The notes beneath the pieces are model-generated. The model was given only the letters and a program-made list of their open reading frames with translations. It ran no database searches and was not told where the DNA came from. Positions 3,026 to 33,678 of a DNA stretch of 64,000 bases are shown piece by piece. The translations under genes were made by a program, and so were the position numbers. Numbering within the stretch: position 1 is the first letter of the stretch; every line of letters begins with the position of its first letter. The stretch is taken from positions 62,001-126,000 of the forward strand of contig JAGWZE010000002.1 in assembly GCA_018969015.1 (NCBI GenBank), given 5' to 3'. This DNA is from Alphaproteobacteria bacterium. Its GTDB lineage: Bacteria; Pseudomonadota; Alphaproteobacteria; Caulobacterales; Aquidulcibacteraceae.

Positions 3026-3811
3026 TCAATCGCGCCGCGCCTTGCGATGGACGGCGCGGCCGAGCCGATTGGCGCGGTCTGCGAGCGCGCGGGCGCGCGC
3101 GTGAAGATGGGCCACGCCGTGTTCGCCGGCGCATGCGGCCAGCTCGGCGTCGTCACCCAGGCGAGCAAGCAGCAGCAGCACGTCGCGCTCCGCGCCGAGG
3201 GCGCGCGCGAGGCGCTTGCCCGATCTGCGTCGACGCCGCAGCGTCGAGGGCCAGGCCGGGCCGAGCGCGATGAGCGCGTGCAGGCGGTCCTTTTCGCGTT
3301 TGCGCCACGTATGGCGGGTCTCGGGATCGTCCTCGCGGTCGTGGCGGGCGGCGGCGAAGGCCTTGCGGGCGCGCCGCATCAGGCGGCGCACGCCGGCTTC
3401 GATGTCGGCCTCGGTCAGCGGCGGGATCTTGGCGACGGCGCGGGTGACGGCGACGAACCGGCGCCGCGCAGCGGCGAGAGGCGGGGCGCCGAGGGCCTCG
3501 CGGCGGGCGGCGAGCGCGTCGGCGAGGGCGACGAGGCCCGCGCGGCGCGCGACGGTTTCCTGGGCCGCAAGATCGCGGGCGTCCGATAAACCGGCCATGG
3601 CGGCGCGTGCGGCGGCGTTGAGGGCGCGGGCGGCGTCGCGGTCTTTGGGGGCGGCAAGGCGGGCGAGCGCGCGCAGGCGCTTCAACCGCACGCGCCCCTG
3701 GTGGACGGCCGTCGTGGCGTCCTCCAGCGCAAAGGCGGCGCGGGCGGCGTCGAGTTCGCGCGCCAAAGCGGCGTGGATGTCGAACGGCCCTCCGGCCTCA
3801 GCGTCGCTCAT
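3026..3811 (-). CDS. CHAD domain protein
   Basis: All-helical CHAD domain protein of 261 residues, rich in Arg and Lys. The N-terminal HQGRVRLKRLRALARL matches the conserved basic helix of the family (VHxxRVxxRRLR type). A second basic repeat, RHTWRKREKDRLHAL, begins the second half, as in the internally duplicated CHAD fold. CHAD proteins bind polyphosphate, and some associate with polyphosphate or PHB granules. No CYTH triphosphatase domain is fused or adjacent. The thioesterase gene lies 73 bases upstream on the same strand. Confidence 0.85.
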   Translation of the reverse strand: MSDAEAGGPFDIHAALARELDAARAAFALEDATTAVHQGRVRLKRLRALARLAAPKDRDAARALNAAARAAMAGLSDARDLAAQETVARRAGLVALADALAARREALGAPPLAAARRRFVAVTRAVAKIPPLTEADIEAGVRRLMRRARKAFAAARHDREDDPETRHTWRKREKDRLHALIALGPAWPSTLRRRRRSGKRLARALGAERDVLLLLARLGDDAELAACAGEHGVAHLHARARALADRANRLGRAVHRKARRD

Positions 3812-6383: not shown

Positions 6384-6394
6384 CCTTCGTCGCC

Positions 6395-6488
6395 GTCATC
6401 CTCGACGCATCGAAGATGCGGCGGGGATCCAGGTGGGTGCGCTGCGGCCTCTGGATCCCCGGCACGCCTGCGGCGCGCCGAGGATGAC
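6395..6488. repeat. Palindromic intergenic repeat, copy 1
   Basis: Nested inverted repeat. The outer arms are GTCATCCTCG (6395-6404) and CGAGGATGAC (6479-6488). The inner arms are GGGGATCCAG (6423-6432) and CTGGATCCCC (6451-6460). Both pairs are perfect. A third small hairpin, GCATC-GAA-GATGC, follows the left outer arm. It has the architecture of the dispersed palindromic repeats common between genes of GC-rich alphaproteobacteria. A related but different copy is at 57976-58108. Confidence 0.75.
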
Positions 6489-6519
6489 GGAAAGACATCT
6501 CGCTCCAGTACGTCGCGCC

Positions 6520-7101
6520 ATGCCCCTCGACGCGCTCGTCGACGAGATCCGCGCCTGCCGCGTGTGTGCGGGCGCGCTGCCGCACGAGCCGCGGCCGATC
6601 GTGTGGGTGCATCCGGAGGCGCGTATCCTGATCGCGGGGCAGGCGCCGGGGCGGCGGGTGCACGAGAGCGGCGTGCCCTGGAACGACCCGAGCGGGGATC
6701 GGCTGCGCGCCTGGATGGGGCTCGATCGCGACGCCTTCTATGACCGGCGCAACGTCGCGGTGGCGGCGATGGGTTTCTGCTATCCGGGCACGGTGAAGGG
6801 CGCGGATCTGCCGCCGCGGCGCGAGTGTGCGCCGCTGTGGCGACCGCGGCTTCTACCGCTGCTCTCGCAGGTGCGGCTGACGCTGCTCGTCGGCGGCTAT
6901 GCGCATCGCTGGCATCTCGGCGCGGCGGCGGCCCGGCGGGGAACGGGCGCGCTCGTGGCCTCCTGGCGGGAGTTTCCGGAGAGCGTGATGGTCCTGCCGC
7001 ACCCGTCCTGGCGCAATTCCGGGTGGCTGAAGCGCAATCCCTGGTTCGAGACGGACGCCGTTCCGGCCCTTCGACGACGCGTGGCGGCTGCGCTATCCTG
7101 A
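6520..7101 (+). CDS. Uracil-DNA glycosylase family protein
   Basis: Cytosolic protein of about 193 residues in the uracil-DNA glycosylase superfamily. The N-terminal CRVCAGALPHEPRP holds two of the family's conserved cysteines. The uracil-pocket strand is ILIAGQAPGRRVHESG with WNDPSGDRL after it, and the C-terminal loop is VLPHPSWRNSGW. This is the lineage often annotated only as UDG-like, so true uracil excision is not certain. I start at ATG 6520 (MPLDALVDEI), the usual family start. The in-frame ATG 6484 lies inside the right arm of the palindromic repeat and would add a repeat-derived tail. Confidence 0.8.
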   Translation: MPLDALVDEIRACRVCAGALPHEPRPIVWVHPEARILIAGQAPGRRVHESGVPWNDPSGDRLRAWMGLDRDAFYDRRNVAVAAMGFCYPGTVKGADLPPRRECAPLWRPRLLPLLSQVRLTLLVGGYAHRWHLGAAAARRGTGALVASWREFPESVMVLPHPSWRNSGWLKRNPWFETDAVPALRRRVAAALS

Positions 7102-7125
7102 CGCCGCGTGAGAGCGGAGAGGCGG

Positions 7126-8160
7126 ATGCGGCGGCTGGCGATTGGGCTCGTGGCGATGATGACGACGCTGCTCGCCGCCTGTGCGCCGACGGTGCAGAAG
7201 CCCATGGTCGGCATCGCGATGACGCAAGGCCCACACTTCGAAAAGGACGCGTTCGTCTCGTTCGACGGCGCCCGTTTGGGCGCGACGGTTTGGCCGGCGG
7301 AGGGGGGCGCGCCGTGGGCCGTCATCGTCGCCGTGCACGGGATGAACGACTACGCCGAGGCCTTCTATCTCGCAGCGCCCCATTGGGCGAAGGCCGGCGT
7401 GACGACCTATGCCTACGACGCGCGCGGTTTCGGGCGCAGCCCCAATCGCGGGCTGTGGCCCGGTGAGGCGCTGCTGACGGAGGATCTGCGCACCGCCGTG
7501 GCCGTCGCCCGGCGCGCGCACCCGGGGGCGATCGTCGCGGTCGTCGGAGATTCGATGGGCTCGGCCACGGCCATCGCCGCATTCGGTTCGGACCGGCCGC
7601 CGGACGCCGATCGCGTCGTCCTGACTGCGCCGGCCGTGTGGGGCTGGTCGACCTTGCCGGACCTCTACGCCGTCACGCTATGGACCGGCGCGCACACGTT
7701 TCCCTGGCGCCCGGTGACCCCGCCGAAGGGCGTCCAGCGGCGCATCGCGGCGTCGGACAATGACGACATGCTGCGTAAGATCGGGCGCGATCCGAACATG
7801 CTGTTCAGTACACGGATCGACGCGATCTACGGGCTCGTCAACCTCATGAACAGCGCCTCCAAGAAGATCGGACGGATCGAGGCGCCGGTGGCGTTTCTCT
7901 ACGGAGCCAAGGATCAGGTGATCCCGCCCAACGCGGCCCGCACGGCAGCTTTGGCGCTGCCGCCCGGCGCGCGCACCGCCTATTATCCAAACGGTTACCA
8001 TATGCTTCTGCGCGACCGGTCGGCGCCGGTCGTCTGGGATGACGTGCTGGCCTTCGTGCGCGATCCCGCGGGGCCGCTGCCGTCCGGGGTCGGACCATGG
8101 CCGCCGCAGGACAAGCCGCAGCCGCCGGCCGCACGCGAAACGTTAACCGTAGCCCGCTAG
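7126..8160 (+). CDS. Alpha/beta hydrolase lipoprotein (lysophospholipase-like)
   Basis: About 344 residues. ATG 7126 is preceded by GGAGAGGCGG and begins a lipoprotein signal (MTTLLAACAP, lipobox LAAC), so the enzyme is probably membrane-anchored in the envelope. The fold shows VAVHGMNDYAEAF (oxyanion region), YDARGFGRS, the nucleophile elbow GDSMGSA, the acid segment YGAKDQVIP and the catalytic His in GYHMLLRD. This matches monoglyceride lipase/lysophospholipase hydrolases. The tail is Pro-rich. The substrate is unknown. Confidence 0.85.
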   Translation: MRRLAIGLVAMMTTLLAACAPTVQKPMVGIAMTQGPHFEKDAFVSFDGARLGATVWPAEGGAPWAVIVAVHGMNDYAEAFYLAAPHWAKAGVTTYAYDARGFGRSPNRGLWPGEALLTEDLRTAVAVARRAHPGAIVAVVGDSMGSATAIAAFGSDRPPDADRVVLTAPAVWGWSTLPDLYAVTLWTGAHTFPWRPVTPPKGVQRRIAASDNDDMLRKIGRDPNMLFSTRIDAIYGLVNLMNSASKKIGRIEAPVAFLYGAKDQVIPPNAARTAALALPPGARTAYYPNGYHMLLRDRSAPVVWDDVLAFVRDPAGPLPSGVGPWPPQDKPQPPAARETLTVAR

Positions 8161-28795: not shown

Positions 28796-29689
28796 ATGGC
28801 CCAAACGCTCGAACACCGGCTGCGTGAAGCCGCCGATCGCGTGACCGTCGCGCTGGATGCGCTGTTGCCACGGGTGCAGGGGCCCGAGGGCGTTCTGTTC
28901 AGCGCCATGCGCTATGCGGCGCTCGCGGGCGGCAAGCGCATGCGCCCGTTCTTTACGCTCGAAGCCGGACGTCTGTTTGACGCGGACGAGCAGGCTTTGT
29001 TGCGCACGGCGGTCGCTGTCGAGTGCGTGCATACCTATTCGCTCGTCCATGACGATCTGCCCTGCATGGACGATGACGATCTTCGCCGCGGACAACCGAC
29101 GACTCACATCCAGTTCGACGAGGCGACGGCGCTTCTGGCGGGCGACGCGCTTTTGACCTTCGCCTTCGAGATCCTGTCCGATCCCGCCACGCATCCCGAT
29201 CCGCAGATGCGGTGCCTGCTCATCTCCGGGCTCGCGAAGGCCTCTGGCCCGACGGGCATGTGCGCGGGGCAGATGATCGACATGCGCGGCGAAAGCCTCT
29301 CGCGCGAGGACATCGCCGCCATCACGCGCATGAACCGGCTGAAAACGGGGGCGCTGATCTCCTATTCGGTCGAGGCGGGCGCGCTGATCGGCGCCGCCTC
29401 CGAAGACGCCCGCACAGCACTCTCCCGGTTCGCGACCGATGTGGGCCTCGCGTTCCAGATGGTCGATGATCTGCTCGACGTCGAAGGCGCCGAGGACGAG
29501 GTGGGCAAGCGGACGGCCAAGGACGCCGACGCCGGCAAGGTCAATTTCGTGACGATCCTGGGCGTCGAGGGCGCCCAGGCGCGCGTGCGCCTTCTCGCCG
29601 CACAAGCGAAGCAACACCTCGCCATTTTCGGCCCACGGGCCAAAGTGTTGTGTGAGGCGGTCGATTTCGTCCTCGACCGGCGTTATTGA
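28796..29689 (+). CDS. ispA: Farnesyl diphosphate synthase (short-chain polyprenyl synthase)
   Basis: Condenses IPP with DMAPP and GPP to make farnesyl diphosphate. The 297-residue protein has the first Asp-rich motif [14 protein letters not shown], the second FQMVDDLLD, and GGKRMRP for substrate phosphate binding. Length and motifs fit bacterial IspA. It precedes dxs on the same strand, forming an isoprenoid module. No xseB gene lies in front of it; that position has a divergent methyltransferase. Confidence 0.94.
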
Positions 29690-29718
29690 AGAAAGTTCAC
29701 CCGCCGGAAAGGCGCGCC

Positions 29719-31626
29719 ATGGCCATCGCTACCCCTCTGCTCGACACTGTTTCGCTCCCGTCCGATCTCCGCAGGTTGGACGAAAGCCAGTTGCGCCAAT
29801 TGGCGGACGAACTGCGCGCCGAGACGATCGACGCCGTCAGCGTCACGGGCGGCCATTTGGGCGCCGGGTTGGGCGTCGTCGAGCTGACGACAGCGCTCCA
29901 CTACGTCTTCGATACGCCAAAAGACATCCTGATCTGGGATGTCGGCCACCAGGCCTACCCCCACAAGATCCTCACGGGCCGCCGTGACCGCATCCGCACC
30001 CTGCGCCAGGGCGGCGGGCTTTCGGGCTTCACCAAGCGCGCCGAGAGCGAATACGACCCGTTCGGCGCGGCCCATGCGGCCACCTCGATCTCGGCCGCGC
30101 TCGGCTTCTGCGCCGCCCGTGACCAGGTCGGCGGGAACAATCACGTCATCGCCGTGATCGGCGACGGGTCGATGTCGGCGGGCATGGCCTACGAGGCCAT
30201 GAACAACGCGGCCGTCACGACCAAGCGCCTGATCGTGATCCTCAACGACAACGACATGTCCATCGCGCCGCCGGTCGGCGGGATGAGCAACTATCTCGCG
30301 CGGCTGGTTTCCGGCGGCGCGTACCAGAAGGTCCGCAAGGTCGCGAAGAAGATGGCGGCGCGCCTGCCGCAGCCGATCCACGACGCGGCCAAGAAGGCTG
30401 AAGAATACGCGCGGGGCATGGTCACGGGCGGCACGTTCTTCGAGGAGCTCGGCTTCTACTATGTCGGCCCGATCGACGGGCACGATCTCGAGACGCTGGT
30501 GCCGATCCTGCGCAACGCGGCGTCGATCCAGGACCGCCCCGTGCTGGTCCACGTGATCACGAAAAAGGGCAAGGGCTACGCGCCGGCCGAGAACGCCGCC
30601 GACAAGTATCACGGCGTGACAAAGTTCAACGTCGTCACCGGCGAGCAGCAGAAAGGCAAAGGCGGGCCGCCGAGCTACACGAAGGTGTATGCCGAAAGCC
30701 TGATCGAGGTCGCCAAGGCCGATCCGAAAGTGTGCGCGATCACCGCGGCGATGCCCTCGGGCACCGGGCTCGACCTCTTCGGGCAAGCCTTCCCGGACCG
30801 CACCTACGATGTCGGGATCGCGGAACAGCACGCTGTGACGTTCGCCGCCGGTCTCGCGGCGGACGGCATGAAGCCGTTCTGCACGATCTATTCGACGTTC
30901 CTGCAGCGCGGGTACGATCAGGTCGTGCACGACGTGGCGATCCAGTCGCTGCCGGTGCGGTTCGCGATGGACCGCGCGGGTCTCGTGGGCGCCGACGGCG
31001 CCACGCACGCCGGCACCTTCGATATCGGCTATCTGGGCGCGCTGCCCGGCTTCGTGCTGATGGCCGCGGCCGACGAGGCCGAGCTTGGCCGCATGGTCGC
31101 CACCTGCGCCGCGATCGACGATCGTCCGAGTGCGGTGCGTTATCCGCGCGGCGAAGCGCTCGGCGTGGAGCGCCCCGCGGTGTTGACGCCGCTCGAGATC
31201 GGCAAGGGCCGGATCGTCCGTGAAGGGACGAGCGTGGCGCTGTTGTCTTATGGCGCGCGCCTCGGCGATGCGCTGAAAGCGGCCGACAAGCTCGGCGCCA
31301 TGGGCCTGTCGACGACGGTGGCCGATGCGCGTTTTGCCAAGCCGCTCGACGAGGATCTGATACGCCGTCTCGCGCGCGAGCACGAGGTGATGCTGACGAT
31401 CGAGGAAGGCGCCGTGGGCGGGTTCGGCGCGTTCACGCTGCACTTCATGGCCGCGGACGGCCTGCTCGACCGCGGCGTGAAGATCCGTACGCTGACCTTG
31501 CCCGACATCTTCCAGGACCAGGACAAGCCGGAAGCGATGATCGCCGAGGCGGGGCTCGACAGCGAAGGCATCGTGCGGGCCGCGTTGGCCGCGCTCGGCC
31601 GCGCCGCCGTCGGCGCGCGCGCCTGA
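29719..31626 (+). CDS. dxs: 1-deoxy-D-xylulose-5-phosphate synthase
   Basis: Thiamine diphosphate enzyme that makes DXP from pyruvate and glyceraldehyde 3-phosphate, the first step of the MEP isoprenoid pathway. About 635 residues. It has [15 protein letters not shown], the ThDP motif [17 protein letters not shown], and the transketolase segment [16 protein letters not shown] use ATG 29719 with a GGAAAGG upstream, 30 bases after ispA. A strong hairpin follows the stop directly. Confidence 0.95.
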
Positions 31627-31683: not shown

Positions 31684-33489
31684 CTAGCCGAAGCCGAACA
31701 GGAACGCGGCGGCGGCAAGCGCGGCGGCGAGGGCGGCCCACAGCGCCGTCACGAACCAGCGCCCGCCGCTTTTCGATTTGCGACGGATCTCGAACGGCTT
31801 CGGCGCGGTCGATTGCCAGCCGGGCGTCCACCCCTGCGCCGCGCCCCGGCTGCTCTCTGCGCGGGCGGCGACGGCCGGGCCCGGCGCGCCGGTGGCTGCA
31901 GGCGCCGGCGCGAGGCCCCCGTCGGGCGTGCGCCGCTGCTTGACGCCGACGCGGCCTTCCACCGCGGCCTTGAGGTTCTTCGCCACGAACATCGCATCGC
32001 CCGTCCAGACGAGTTGATCCTTCGTTTTGATGAGCGGCAGCTTCGACAGGTCCGGCTTGCCCACGATCAGCGGCACGACGGTCTTCTCGCCGGAGACTTC
32101 CAGCGCGAGGGCCGTGTTGACCTCGAGCACGGGCCAGTCCTTCGCGACGGAGGCGGGCGAGACGATCGTCAGAACCGTGCGCGCCGATCCGAGCGCGACG
32201 TTGATTTTCTCCGTGAACGAGGCGCCCCAGGCGATGTGCGCCTCGTCGAGGAAGGCTTTCAGGCCGAGCTTCTCGCAGGCCTCGAAGATCGGGCGCGCGA
32301 TGGTGTCCTTGTCCTCGCTCGCGTGGCTGATGAAGACGTCGTAGTCGGCCGCGCCGAACGCCATCTCGCGCACGAATTTGGACGGGTTCGGATCGAGCGC
32401 GAGCACCTGGGCGCACAGCTTCAGGAAGACGGGATCCTCCCGGCCGCGGATCATCTTGACGAAGGCCAGCTCGCCATAAACGACATTGCGAAACGCCGTG
32501 CCCGCCGTGCCGTCCTTCACTTTCGGTTTCGCCCGGCGCCAGCGGCGGAAGTGCTCCTCCCCCGCGGCTTCGAGGCCGAACTTCGACCACGCGTGGAGCA
32601 TGGCGCGGATCCGGCGGACGCGCGCGCGCTCGATGTTCGGCATCGCATTGACGACGAGCCCGGTGACGCTCTGGCGTTCATGGCGCGTCTGCAGGCGCAC
32701 CTTGCCGAAATTCACGGCGAAGCCGCTGTCCGCGATGGCCTTGGCGAGCGCGTCGCCGACGACGGCGCGGCGTTTCTCGCCGTCCTGCTCGAACGCGACG
32801 ATCGCGGCGGGAAAGCCCGTCTGGTTCGTCGAGAAGGTGATGTCGTCGGCATAGCGGGAGTAGCGCACGCCGTTCTCGCGGGCGAGCCTGGTGAGGCGGC
32901 GATCGAGCGCCGTGGCGACGAAGTTGGACAGCACGGGCGAGGTGGGCGCGCCTTGCGGCAGGCCGTTCTTGTGCGTGCAGACCTGCGCCATGATCGTTGC
33001 GGCCGCCGGCCCCATGAAGAAGGGCGAGGCCATGAACAGCCCGCGCACACGGCCGAAATTCACCGTCGGGAAGAAGTCCTTCAGATCGACGTTAAAGACG
33101 AGCCGCTGGCCCGCATGGGCCTTGGCGTTGGTGAGGATGCTCCGTTCCGGGATGAAGCCGTGCGCGCCGGGATGGGCGCGGTAGGCGGCCAGCAGCAGCG
33201 GCGCGAGCTTTTCCTGGCAGTCGCGCACGACCCCGATTGGCGCGTTGATCTCGCGCACGCCGCCGGACCGCTTCGGGATCTCGAACGCGCGGTAGCGCTG
33301 GCTCTCGTCGGCCCGGTACAGCACGTAGGTGAGCCAGCTCGCCGACACGTCGAACAGCGCGGCGACGTCGCTCGCGGATTGCGGCGCGCGGCCCGAGACC
33401 AGGATGGCGGGGGCCTGCGGAGGCGCATCGTCGGGGCGGCGATCGGCGTGCATGTCCGCTTGGTTAGCGTCTGCGCTGCGGTTCGTCAT
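31684..33489 (-). CDS. Retron reverse transcriptase fused to TIR effector, with C-terminal membrane helix
   Basis: About 601 residues from ATG 33489. The N-terminal two thirds is a retron reverse transcriptase. It has the retron-specific NAxxH as NAKAH (about 121-125), motif A VDLKDFFPT (Asp about 135), LPQGAPTSP (177-185), the catalytic YADD (213-216) and VTG (275-277). From about 383 a TIR domain follows: YDVFISHASEDK opens it, and the Glu in WPVLEV (about 456) is at the NADase position. A Pro/Ala-rich linker leads to a predicted transmembrane helix (about 578-599). A longer start at 33558 would run into the msd hairpin and is rejected; ATG 33453 is an alternative. Expected role: abortive phage defence in which msDNA restrains or triggers NAD+ depletion by TIR. 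RT-TIR retrons are known; the terminal membrane anchor is unusual to me. Confidence 0.9.
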   Translation of the reverse strand: MTNRSADANQADMHADRRPDDAPPQAPAILVSGRAPQSASDVAALFDVSASWLTYVLYRADESQRYRAFEIPKRSGGVREINAPIGVVRDCQEKLAPLLLAAYRAHPGAHGFIPERSILTNAKAHAGQRLVFNVDLKDFFPTVNFGRVRGLFMASPFFMGPAAATIMAQVCTHKNGLPQGAPTSPVLSNFVATALDRRLTRLARENGVRYSRYADDITFSTNQTGFPAAIVAFEQDGEKRRAVVGDALAKAIADSGFAVNFGKVRLQTRHERQSVTGLVVNAMPNIERARVRRIRAMLHAWSKFGLEAAGEEHFRRWRRAKPKVKDGTAGTAFRNVVYGELAFVKMIRGREDPVFLKLCAQVLALDPNPSKFVREMAFGAADYDVFISHASEDKDTIARPIFEACEKLGLKAFLDEAHIAWGASFTEKINVALGSARTVLTIVSPASVAKDWPVLEVNTALALEVSGEKTVVPLIVGKPDLSKLPLIKTKDQLVWTGDAMFVAKNLKAAVEGRVGVKQRRTPDGGLAPAPAATGAPGPAVAARAESSRGAAQGWTPGWQSTAPKPFEIRRKSKSGGRWFVTALWAALAAALAAAAFLFGFG

Positions 33490-33516
33490 CCGCTGACGAC
33501 AGGGAATGGCGCGCGC

Positions 33517-33647
33517 AGGAAAAGAGCATCCCGCCCCTCGTACCTTAGGCAAGGCCATGGGCCTTGGCCCATGGCCTTGAAGATGGGCGTTTGACTTTCC
33601 GCCGCAGGATCGACAGCGGACTTAGACGGGCGGGATGCTCCTTCCCC
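33517..33647 (-). ncRNA. Retron msr-msd RNA
   Basis: Minus-strand element directly upstream of the RT gene. Arm a1 is GAGCATCCCGCCC (33640-33628) and arm a2 is GGGCGGGATGCTC (33536-33524), 13 perfect pairs. Seven more outward pairs (three of them G-U) extend the helix to 33647/33517. Between them are an msr-like segment (33627-33580) with a CCGC/GCGG stem (33619-33602), then a perfect 14-bp hairpin, CAAGGCCATGGGCC-AA-GGCCCATGGCCTTG (33579-33550), as the msd stem. The branch guanosine is expected just after a1; its exact position is not determined. The RT start lies 27 bases after a2. Confidence 0.8.
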
Positions 33648-33678
33648 CAACGTGGCTGAGCCGGCGCCGGGCTGTCAA
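33648..33678 (-). promoter_or_regulatory. Candidate retron promoter
   Basis: On the minus strand a perfect -35 hexamer TTGACA (33678-33673) is followed after 17-18 bases by a weak -10 (CACGTT-like). Initiation would then fall at or near the first base of the a1 arm, as expected for an msr transcript. The weak -10 keeps confidence low. Confidence 0.3.

Follow-up and report, generated by a model that had tools for sequence, protein, structure and literature searches.

The window, a stretch of 64,000 nucleotides, contains what looks like a divergent, type XII-like retron, a bacterial antiviral element, in which a reverse transcriptase (RT) is fused to a TIR domain. It is very probably a complete alphaproteobacterial retron of this type, with RNA-templated msDNA, control of the TIR domain, and an RT-TIR start codon that in relatives is buried in the a2 arm of the retron RNA; this start within a2 is a feature of the relatives that has been lost or bypassed in the window. 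The gene, RNA fold, covariation, promoter-like element and in-frame a2 start of the relatives described below were all computed. A preliminary description of this DNA had read positions 33517-33647 as an msr-msd RNA. The RT-TIR gene next door, a fold conserved over 23 loci and a match to a model trained with the window held out support that reading as right, as far as sequence can tell.

The predicted retron non-coding RNA (msr-msd) runs from 33647 to 33517 on the minus strand, and its 131 nt agree with the length of about 131 nt first proposed. Folding the minus strand, a check named in the preliminary description, gave a stable structure with a minimum free energy of -84.2 kcal/mol, against a mean of -49.9 (sd 3.9) for dinucleotide shuffles (z -8.73); none of 200 shuffles reached this stability. 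The assignment to the minus strand likewise held, with an RNA covariance model scoring 106.7 bits on that strand versus 23.1 on the plus strand. In the fold, the 20-nt a1 arm (33628-33647, minus strand) pairs with the a2 arm (33517-33536, minus strand) over 20 contiguous positions, a1 being read 33647-33628 and a2 33536-33517. The 13 perfect pairs and 7 further pairs originally counted are both visible there, as a Watson-Crick block of 13 pairs (GAGCATCCCGCCC with GGGCGGGATGCTC) and 7 outer pairs with G-U among them.

Between the arms lie the remaining parts expected of a retron RNA. Beside a1, the G of a UA[C/A/U]G motif is invariant in all 23 loci, and this nucleotide (33621, minus strand) is a candidate 2'-5' priming guanosine; the priming role of a conserved G is taken from the retron literature (PMC8989520). 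An msr hairpin of 8 bp with a 7-nt loop follows (33598-33620, minus strand), between a1 and msd. It was absent from the preliminary description, which also did not notice that in relatives a2 overlaps the start of the RT gene. The msd hairpin (33550-33579, minus strand), the predicted reverse-transcribed template, had been described as a perfect 14-bp hairpin with a 2-base loop, which is true of the DNA inverted repeat 33579-33550; in the RNA fold the innermost pair is open, leaving 13 bp and a 4-nt loop. The msd is indeed short, as had been remarked, but this is no peculiarity of the window, since a short msd is the norm in the group. Searching Rfam with the window RNA gave no match at the gathering score, and the two weak matches below threshold fell far short of it; four relatives and four comparison loci likewise had no match. 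This RNA class is one without an Rfam match.

Conservation of the fold was assessed in an alignment of 23 distinct RNA sequences (A3), in which 27 pairs of a1/a2 and msr were scored. Over these pairs 96.1% of cells were paired, and sliding the partner by 1 to 3 columns reduced pairing to 39.6-53.5%. Compared with shuffles, which ignore relatedness, changes on both sides occurred in 8 pairs (shuffled mean 3.8; 1 of 500 as high) and in 23 cells (mean 6.6; 0 of 500), and the covariation score was 0.163 (mean 0.107; 0 of 500). Further pair types were no more frequent than in shuffles (19 versus 18.6; 275 of 500). The msr hairpin was paired in 99.5% of cells of A3, with both-side changes in 2 of its 8 pairs. 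RNAalifold independently recovered the a1/a2 and msr helices and added msd pairs, in which as many as 10 sequences carry both-side changes. At the msd position all 23 loci are predicted to form a hairpin, though its sequence takes several different forms, with z between -1.4 and -8.2 against simple shuffles; in L003, L005, L008 and L017 the fold is only weakly better than its shuffles (z -1.4 to -2.1). The stems of a1/a2, msr and msd are kept through compensatory changes. Such changes in the arms were what the preliminary description had proposed to look for in related loci, naming arms that do not pair in homologues or a missing msd hairpin as outcomes that would count against it; the arms pair and the hairpin is present throughout.

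One claim survived only in part. The a1/a2 helix had been called unusually long, and this applies to its outer pairs, which are in large part a peculiarity of the window; the group as a whole shares the inner helix. Columns 10-25 of A3 are paired in 22-23 of the 23 sequences at each position, columns 8 and 9 in 19 and 13, and columns 3-7 in 5-12 sequences only.

As an independent measure, a covariance model (R2) was trained on 17 loci of the family with the window held out. R2 found the window at 95.3 bits (E 7e-27) and all five of the other held-out loci (L043-L046 and L019) at 82-103 bits. Its weak matches to L049, an RT-TIR locus in a KSB1 metagenome-assembled genome (MAG; 24.7 bits), and to L022, an RT-protease locus (24.2 bits), hint at a wider RNA family. 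A second model, R1, matched 19 of 398 genomes of the order, at one place each, these being the genomes of L002-L020; it matched none of the 7 other RT-positive genomes of the order, whose RTs are more distant, and in the class it matched 1 of 342 genomes, the window's own. R1 was trained on the loci it finds, so that its informative part is the lack of other matches, while the independence of R2 comes from the hold-out. The 23-locus alignment provides a ready covariance model for this class of RNA.

Directly downstream of the RNA lies the RT-TIR fusion gene (31684-33489, minus strand), which encodes 601 aa if translation starts at 33489; 33453 is an alternative start. Domain profiles place RVT_1 at aa 71-277 and TIR_2 at aa 385-488 of the 601-aa protein. 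The top PADLOC profile was RT-TIR_XII (E 8.9e-158), followed by the family RT-Protease_XI (9e-118). With the NCBIfam model NF042941 (Retron_TIR_antiphage), the window protein scored 579.9 bits, below the curated cut-off of 600, and we therefore file it as a type XII-like variant and not as an NF042941 equivalog; of three relatives, one scored above the cut-off (631) and two below (588.7 and 545.2), and the E. coli protein scored 671.7. N121-H125 (NAxxH), YADD at 213-216, VTG at 275-277 and W452-E456 (WxxxE) are invariant in 18 of 18 proteins of the protein alignment (A1). We take the first three to be hallmark motifs of retron RTs and WxxxE to be a TIR motif. The gene is the sole RVT_1 match in the window's genome. 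A structure model built from A1 (mean pLDDT 76.2) had retron Eco2 as its closest solved structure, and Eco2/Ec67 came first by sequence too; the TIR part also matched the TIR domain of AbTir. The fused TIR domain is the associated, presumably toxic, effector. The neighbouring genes, for an AMP-binding enzyme and for DXP synthase (dxs), are both on the plus strand. None of four neighbour genes tested was found within the short flanks of the other loci searched. We did observe dxs, which lies beside the retron at 29686-31626 of the window, in the relative L051 as well (6386-7438), about 1.8 kb from the RT.

Relatives were recovered by alignment-based scans and a genome search; scans with the single window protein found none. 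Of 60 genomes from the GTDB family of the window, 21, among them the window's own, had a protein match at E <= 1e-40, and 19 of these were window-type loci (L002-L020). Three of the 19 are cut by a contig end, namely L008, L018 and L020, the last of them before the TIR domain. Across the order, 26 of 398 genomes had a protein match at E <= 1e-60. At E <= 1e-90, NF042941 was seen in just 2 genomes of a sample of 385 from the class and in 2 of 398 from the phylum; each pair includes the genome of the window, and none of the matches in these two samples was above the cut-off. The RT-TIR protein is rare beyond the family. Named relatives were mostly Hyphomonadaceae or Caulobacterales MAGs. Of the 80 loci kept from the alignment-based scan of named genomes, 11 duplicated loci found above, and four new ones were taken in: L043 (Bradyrhizobiaceae MAG), L044 (Filomicrobium MAG), and L045 and L046 (Alphaproteobacteria MAGs). 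We dropped L048 and L050 as partial loci without upstream DNA, and left out L052-L113, whose matches lay in or around the TIR domain. Also left out of A3 were L049, a distant RT-TIR with different arms, and L021 and L022, the latter carrying a trypsin-like domain. Five loci from an alignment-based viral scan (L114-L118; 29-44% identity over the RT) were used for arm comparison only. The RNA lies upstream of the RT in 23 of 23 loci, namely the window, 18 others of its family and 4 in other named alphaproteobacterial MAGs; 19 of the 23 thus come from one GTDB family, and all named records matched or added are metagenome-assembled genomes.

Upstream of the RNA, all 19 family loci have TTGAC[AT] 54-59 nt before the invariant G, a motif expected in 0.3 of 19 anywhere within the 69 nt examined when the upstream sequence is shuffled. 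In the window this predicted -35 element of the retron promoter, TTGACA (33673-33678, minus strand), lies 57 nt upstream of the G. The motif was found in 0 of the 4 loci outside the family sample, and scans of the window for E. coli-consensus promoters and terminators returned nothing, including no consensus -10, the consensus being of E. coli type. The position of TTGAC[AT] places the predicted transcription start near the 5' end of a1, and the RNA probably opens the transcript. A terminator reading was considered for a2 followed by a run of T in the window and in L043.

In 19 of the 23 loci (L003-L018, L020, L045 and L046), the Shine-Dalgarno sequence and an in-frame ATG of RT-TIR lie within a2. 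There a2 reads GAGGG(A/G)CGGGATG or close to it, with GAGG 6 nt upstream of the ATG, which is in the RT frame with no intervening stop. For 16 of the 19, this is the only ATG, GTG or TTG before the first residue aligned to the window protein, a stretch of 6-75 nt; beyond that point, some loci offer other non-ATG or internal start candidates. Opening the 13-nt segment that holds the Shine-Dalgarno sequence and start would cost 17-27 kcal/mol in 22 leaders with a1 and 5-13 kcal/mol without it, and the cost at the E. coli RT-TIR start is 4.3 kcal/mol. With both signals inside a2, formation of the retron RNA is expected to impede synthesis of its own effector. At a cost near 24 kcal/mol translation would be almost silent, so that some escape route must exist. 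Titles and abstract openings on RT-TIR retrons, retron ncRNA, and retron starts or Shine-Dalgarno sequences describe no start codon placed within a2; as these do not extend to the main classification papers (Mestre et al. 2020 and the census of Khan et al.), it is uncertain whether such a start has already been described.

Four of the 23 lack this arrangement: the window, L043, L044 and, at L019, the RNA that lies upstream. The window's a2 also contains an ATG, preceded by GAGGGG, offset from the RT frame by 1 mod 3. It opens a 21-codon reading frame (33464-33529, minus strand) that overlaps the RT start at 33489 in a different frame and terminates 10 nt short of 33453, where the RT frame has its next ATG. 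This short frame might be translationally coupled to the RT start; a one-base assembly error could also be the source of the offset. With its start outside the helix, the window's a1/a2 would be free to lengthen, and this may explain its length. At L019, the full RNA (3443-3582, reverse complement) ends about 0.3 kb before the RT start at 3132, where a second, degenerate a2/start segment sits exactly at the start, as though the RNA had been tandemly duplicated. This a2-like copy suggests that the a2 segment serves as a translation start. In L043 (L043:381-800), the RT lies about 300 nt away from the retron RNA, across a stretch in which direct repeats were noted by eye; the a2 ATG of this locus runs into a stop after four codons, with a run of T.

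Comparison with known systems places the locus nearest type XII, the RT-TIR retrons, to which the 'Retron-TIR' of Gao et al. 2020 (PMC7699616) corresponds. Like the E. coli 'TIR domain-containing anti-phage reverse transcriptase' (NF042941), it has an RT with a C-terminal TIR domain in one gene, inverted arms directly upstream and the PADLOC profile RT-TIR_XII. The E. coli protein differs in sequence, with 41.4% identity over 77% of the window protein, and in the E. coli locus 53 nt separate the end of the candidate a2 from the annotated start; R2 found nothing at the E. coli loci L139 and L031 up to E 1. RT-TIR is annotated as two overlapping genes on the E. coli plasmid NZ_CP019281 (L031) and as one gene in the listed E. 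coli chromosomes (L139); copies at >=99% occur in 82 of 5426 E. coli genomes. Type XI retrons (L022, L027 and L028) also have a fused effector, a trypsin-like protease whose domains were found, in place of TIR, and their arm sequences differ from ours. In L022 the candidate a2 reaches the start codon, and in L027 and L028 it falls within the first gene codons; in the latter two, a 13-bp arm pair with compensating differences seemingly lies inside the first RT codons. Retron Eco2 (Ec67; type I-C, RT-Toprim; 9lm3 and 9i2f) shares the fused effector, which in Eco2 is Toprim. In 12 loci with arms of Eco2 appearance, a possible start lies downstream of a2 in 10, L116 also having one inside a2; L023 has only a GTG nearby, at the a2 edge, and L118 has no candidate start listed. 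Overlap of start and a2 may therefore not be exclusive to the TIR clade. The AbTir TIR domain (7uxu) shares the TIR fold (TM-score 0.83, normalised by target), and we know of no link between AbTir and any retron.

By analogy with retron biology, from which priming, msDNA, toxin control and NADase activity are carried over, transcription would begin at or close to the first base of a1 and its product would fold into the msr-msd RNA, and the RT would bind it and prime from the 2'-OH of G33621. Copying the msd hairpin would yield a short msDNA of at most about 60 nt, and the RT-RNA-msDNA complex would keep the fused TIR domain inactive. Phage interference with the complex would free the TIR domain, NAD+ would be destroyed and the infected cell would stop growing. 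In the 19 loci with the start in a2, the same folding would bury the Shine-Dalgarno sequence and start codon of RT-TIR, so that a single transcript would serve either as template RNA or as effector mRNA. The start in the window would have shifted just downstream, possibly coupled to the short frame from a2. Sequestration, coupling and membrane anchoring (see below) are all read from sequence alone. We tentatively extend this to a proposal that we regard as plausible but somewhat less than probable: in this alphaproteobacterial RT-TIR clade, the non-coding RNA may act as the 5' leader and also switch the translation of its own toxin, template folding and effector synthesis being mutually exclusive because the Shine-Dalgarno sequence and AUG lie in a2, and a window-like lineage may have escaped by shifting its start to a place outside the helix, lengthening the helix and adding a membrane anchor to the TIR effector. 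In retrons with fused effectors, the toxin must stay silent while enough RT is made for its own inhibitor. If the proposal is true, the start codon in a2 is a simple answer: the inhibitor-forming RNA also limits toxin translation. The short, variable msd stem may be of interest for retron-based DNA production in cells.

Three other explanations deserve weighing, of which decay of the window's retron is the least improbable, though still unlikely. A small indel would have removed the frame between a2 and the RT, leaving RT-TIR made poorly or not at all; the in-frame a2 start of 19 of 23 loci, set beside the window's out-of-frame ATG with its stop after 21 codons, fits this. Yet the 601 codons are still open, the RT and TIR motifs are intact, the RNA is well preserved by its R2 match, opening an in-frame ATG at 33489 would take 10.1 kcal/mol, and Filomicrobium L044 shows a similarly detached start with the same offset.

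The burial of the Shine-Dalgarno sequence and start codon by a2 in 19 of 23 loci is also what a translational or transcriptional attenuator would produce, with the structure acting as a leader of RT-TIR mRNA without reverse transcription. We consider this quite improbable, as a leader could do without a distinct msr hairpin, an invariant G by the helix and a variable yet paired msd; moreover, the whole RNA is kept in the 4 of 23 loci whose RT starts outside it, and the adjoining gene is that of a retron RT. GC-rich DNA forms hairpins readily and Rfam offers no match, so the inverted repeats might be ascribed to chance or to a repetitive element with no tie to the RT. This we regard as virtually dismissed by the z of -8.7 against dinucleotide shuffles, by a single copy per genome beside the RT in 19 of 19 matched genomes, and by the covariation and the held-out R2 match, which contradict it.

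The protein of the window's RT-TIR retron differs from those of its relatives at its C-terminus, where a hydrophobic helix (31696-31758, minus strand; aa 578-598 in the structure model) is a predicted membrane anchor. The highest 19-residue hydropathy of this tail is 2.18, against at most 1.16 in the tails of 15 relatives, these being the 15 of the 17 relatives in A1 that reach their C-terminus. The relatives' ends instead consist of a low-complexity, mostly Pro-rich linker and a short hydrophobic-basic motif (e.g. FFELLFGRRKR), and the E. coli RT-TIR protein ends shortly past the TIR domain without such a tail. Unlike its relatives, the window's RT-TIR may therefore be anchored by a membrane helix, and the predicted tail raises the possibility that some TIR retrons work at the membrane.
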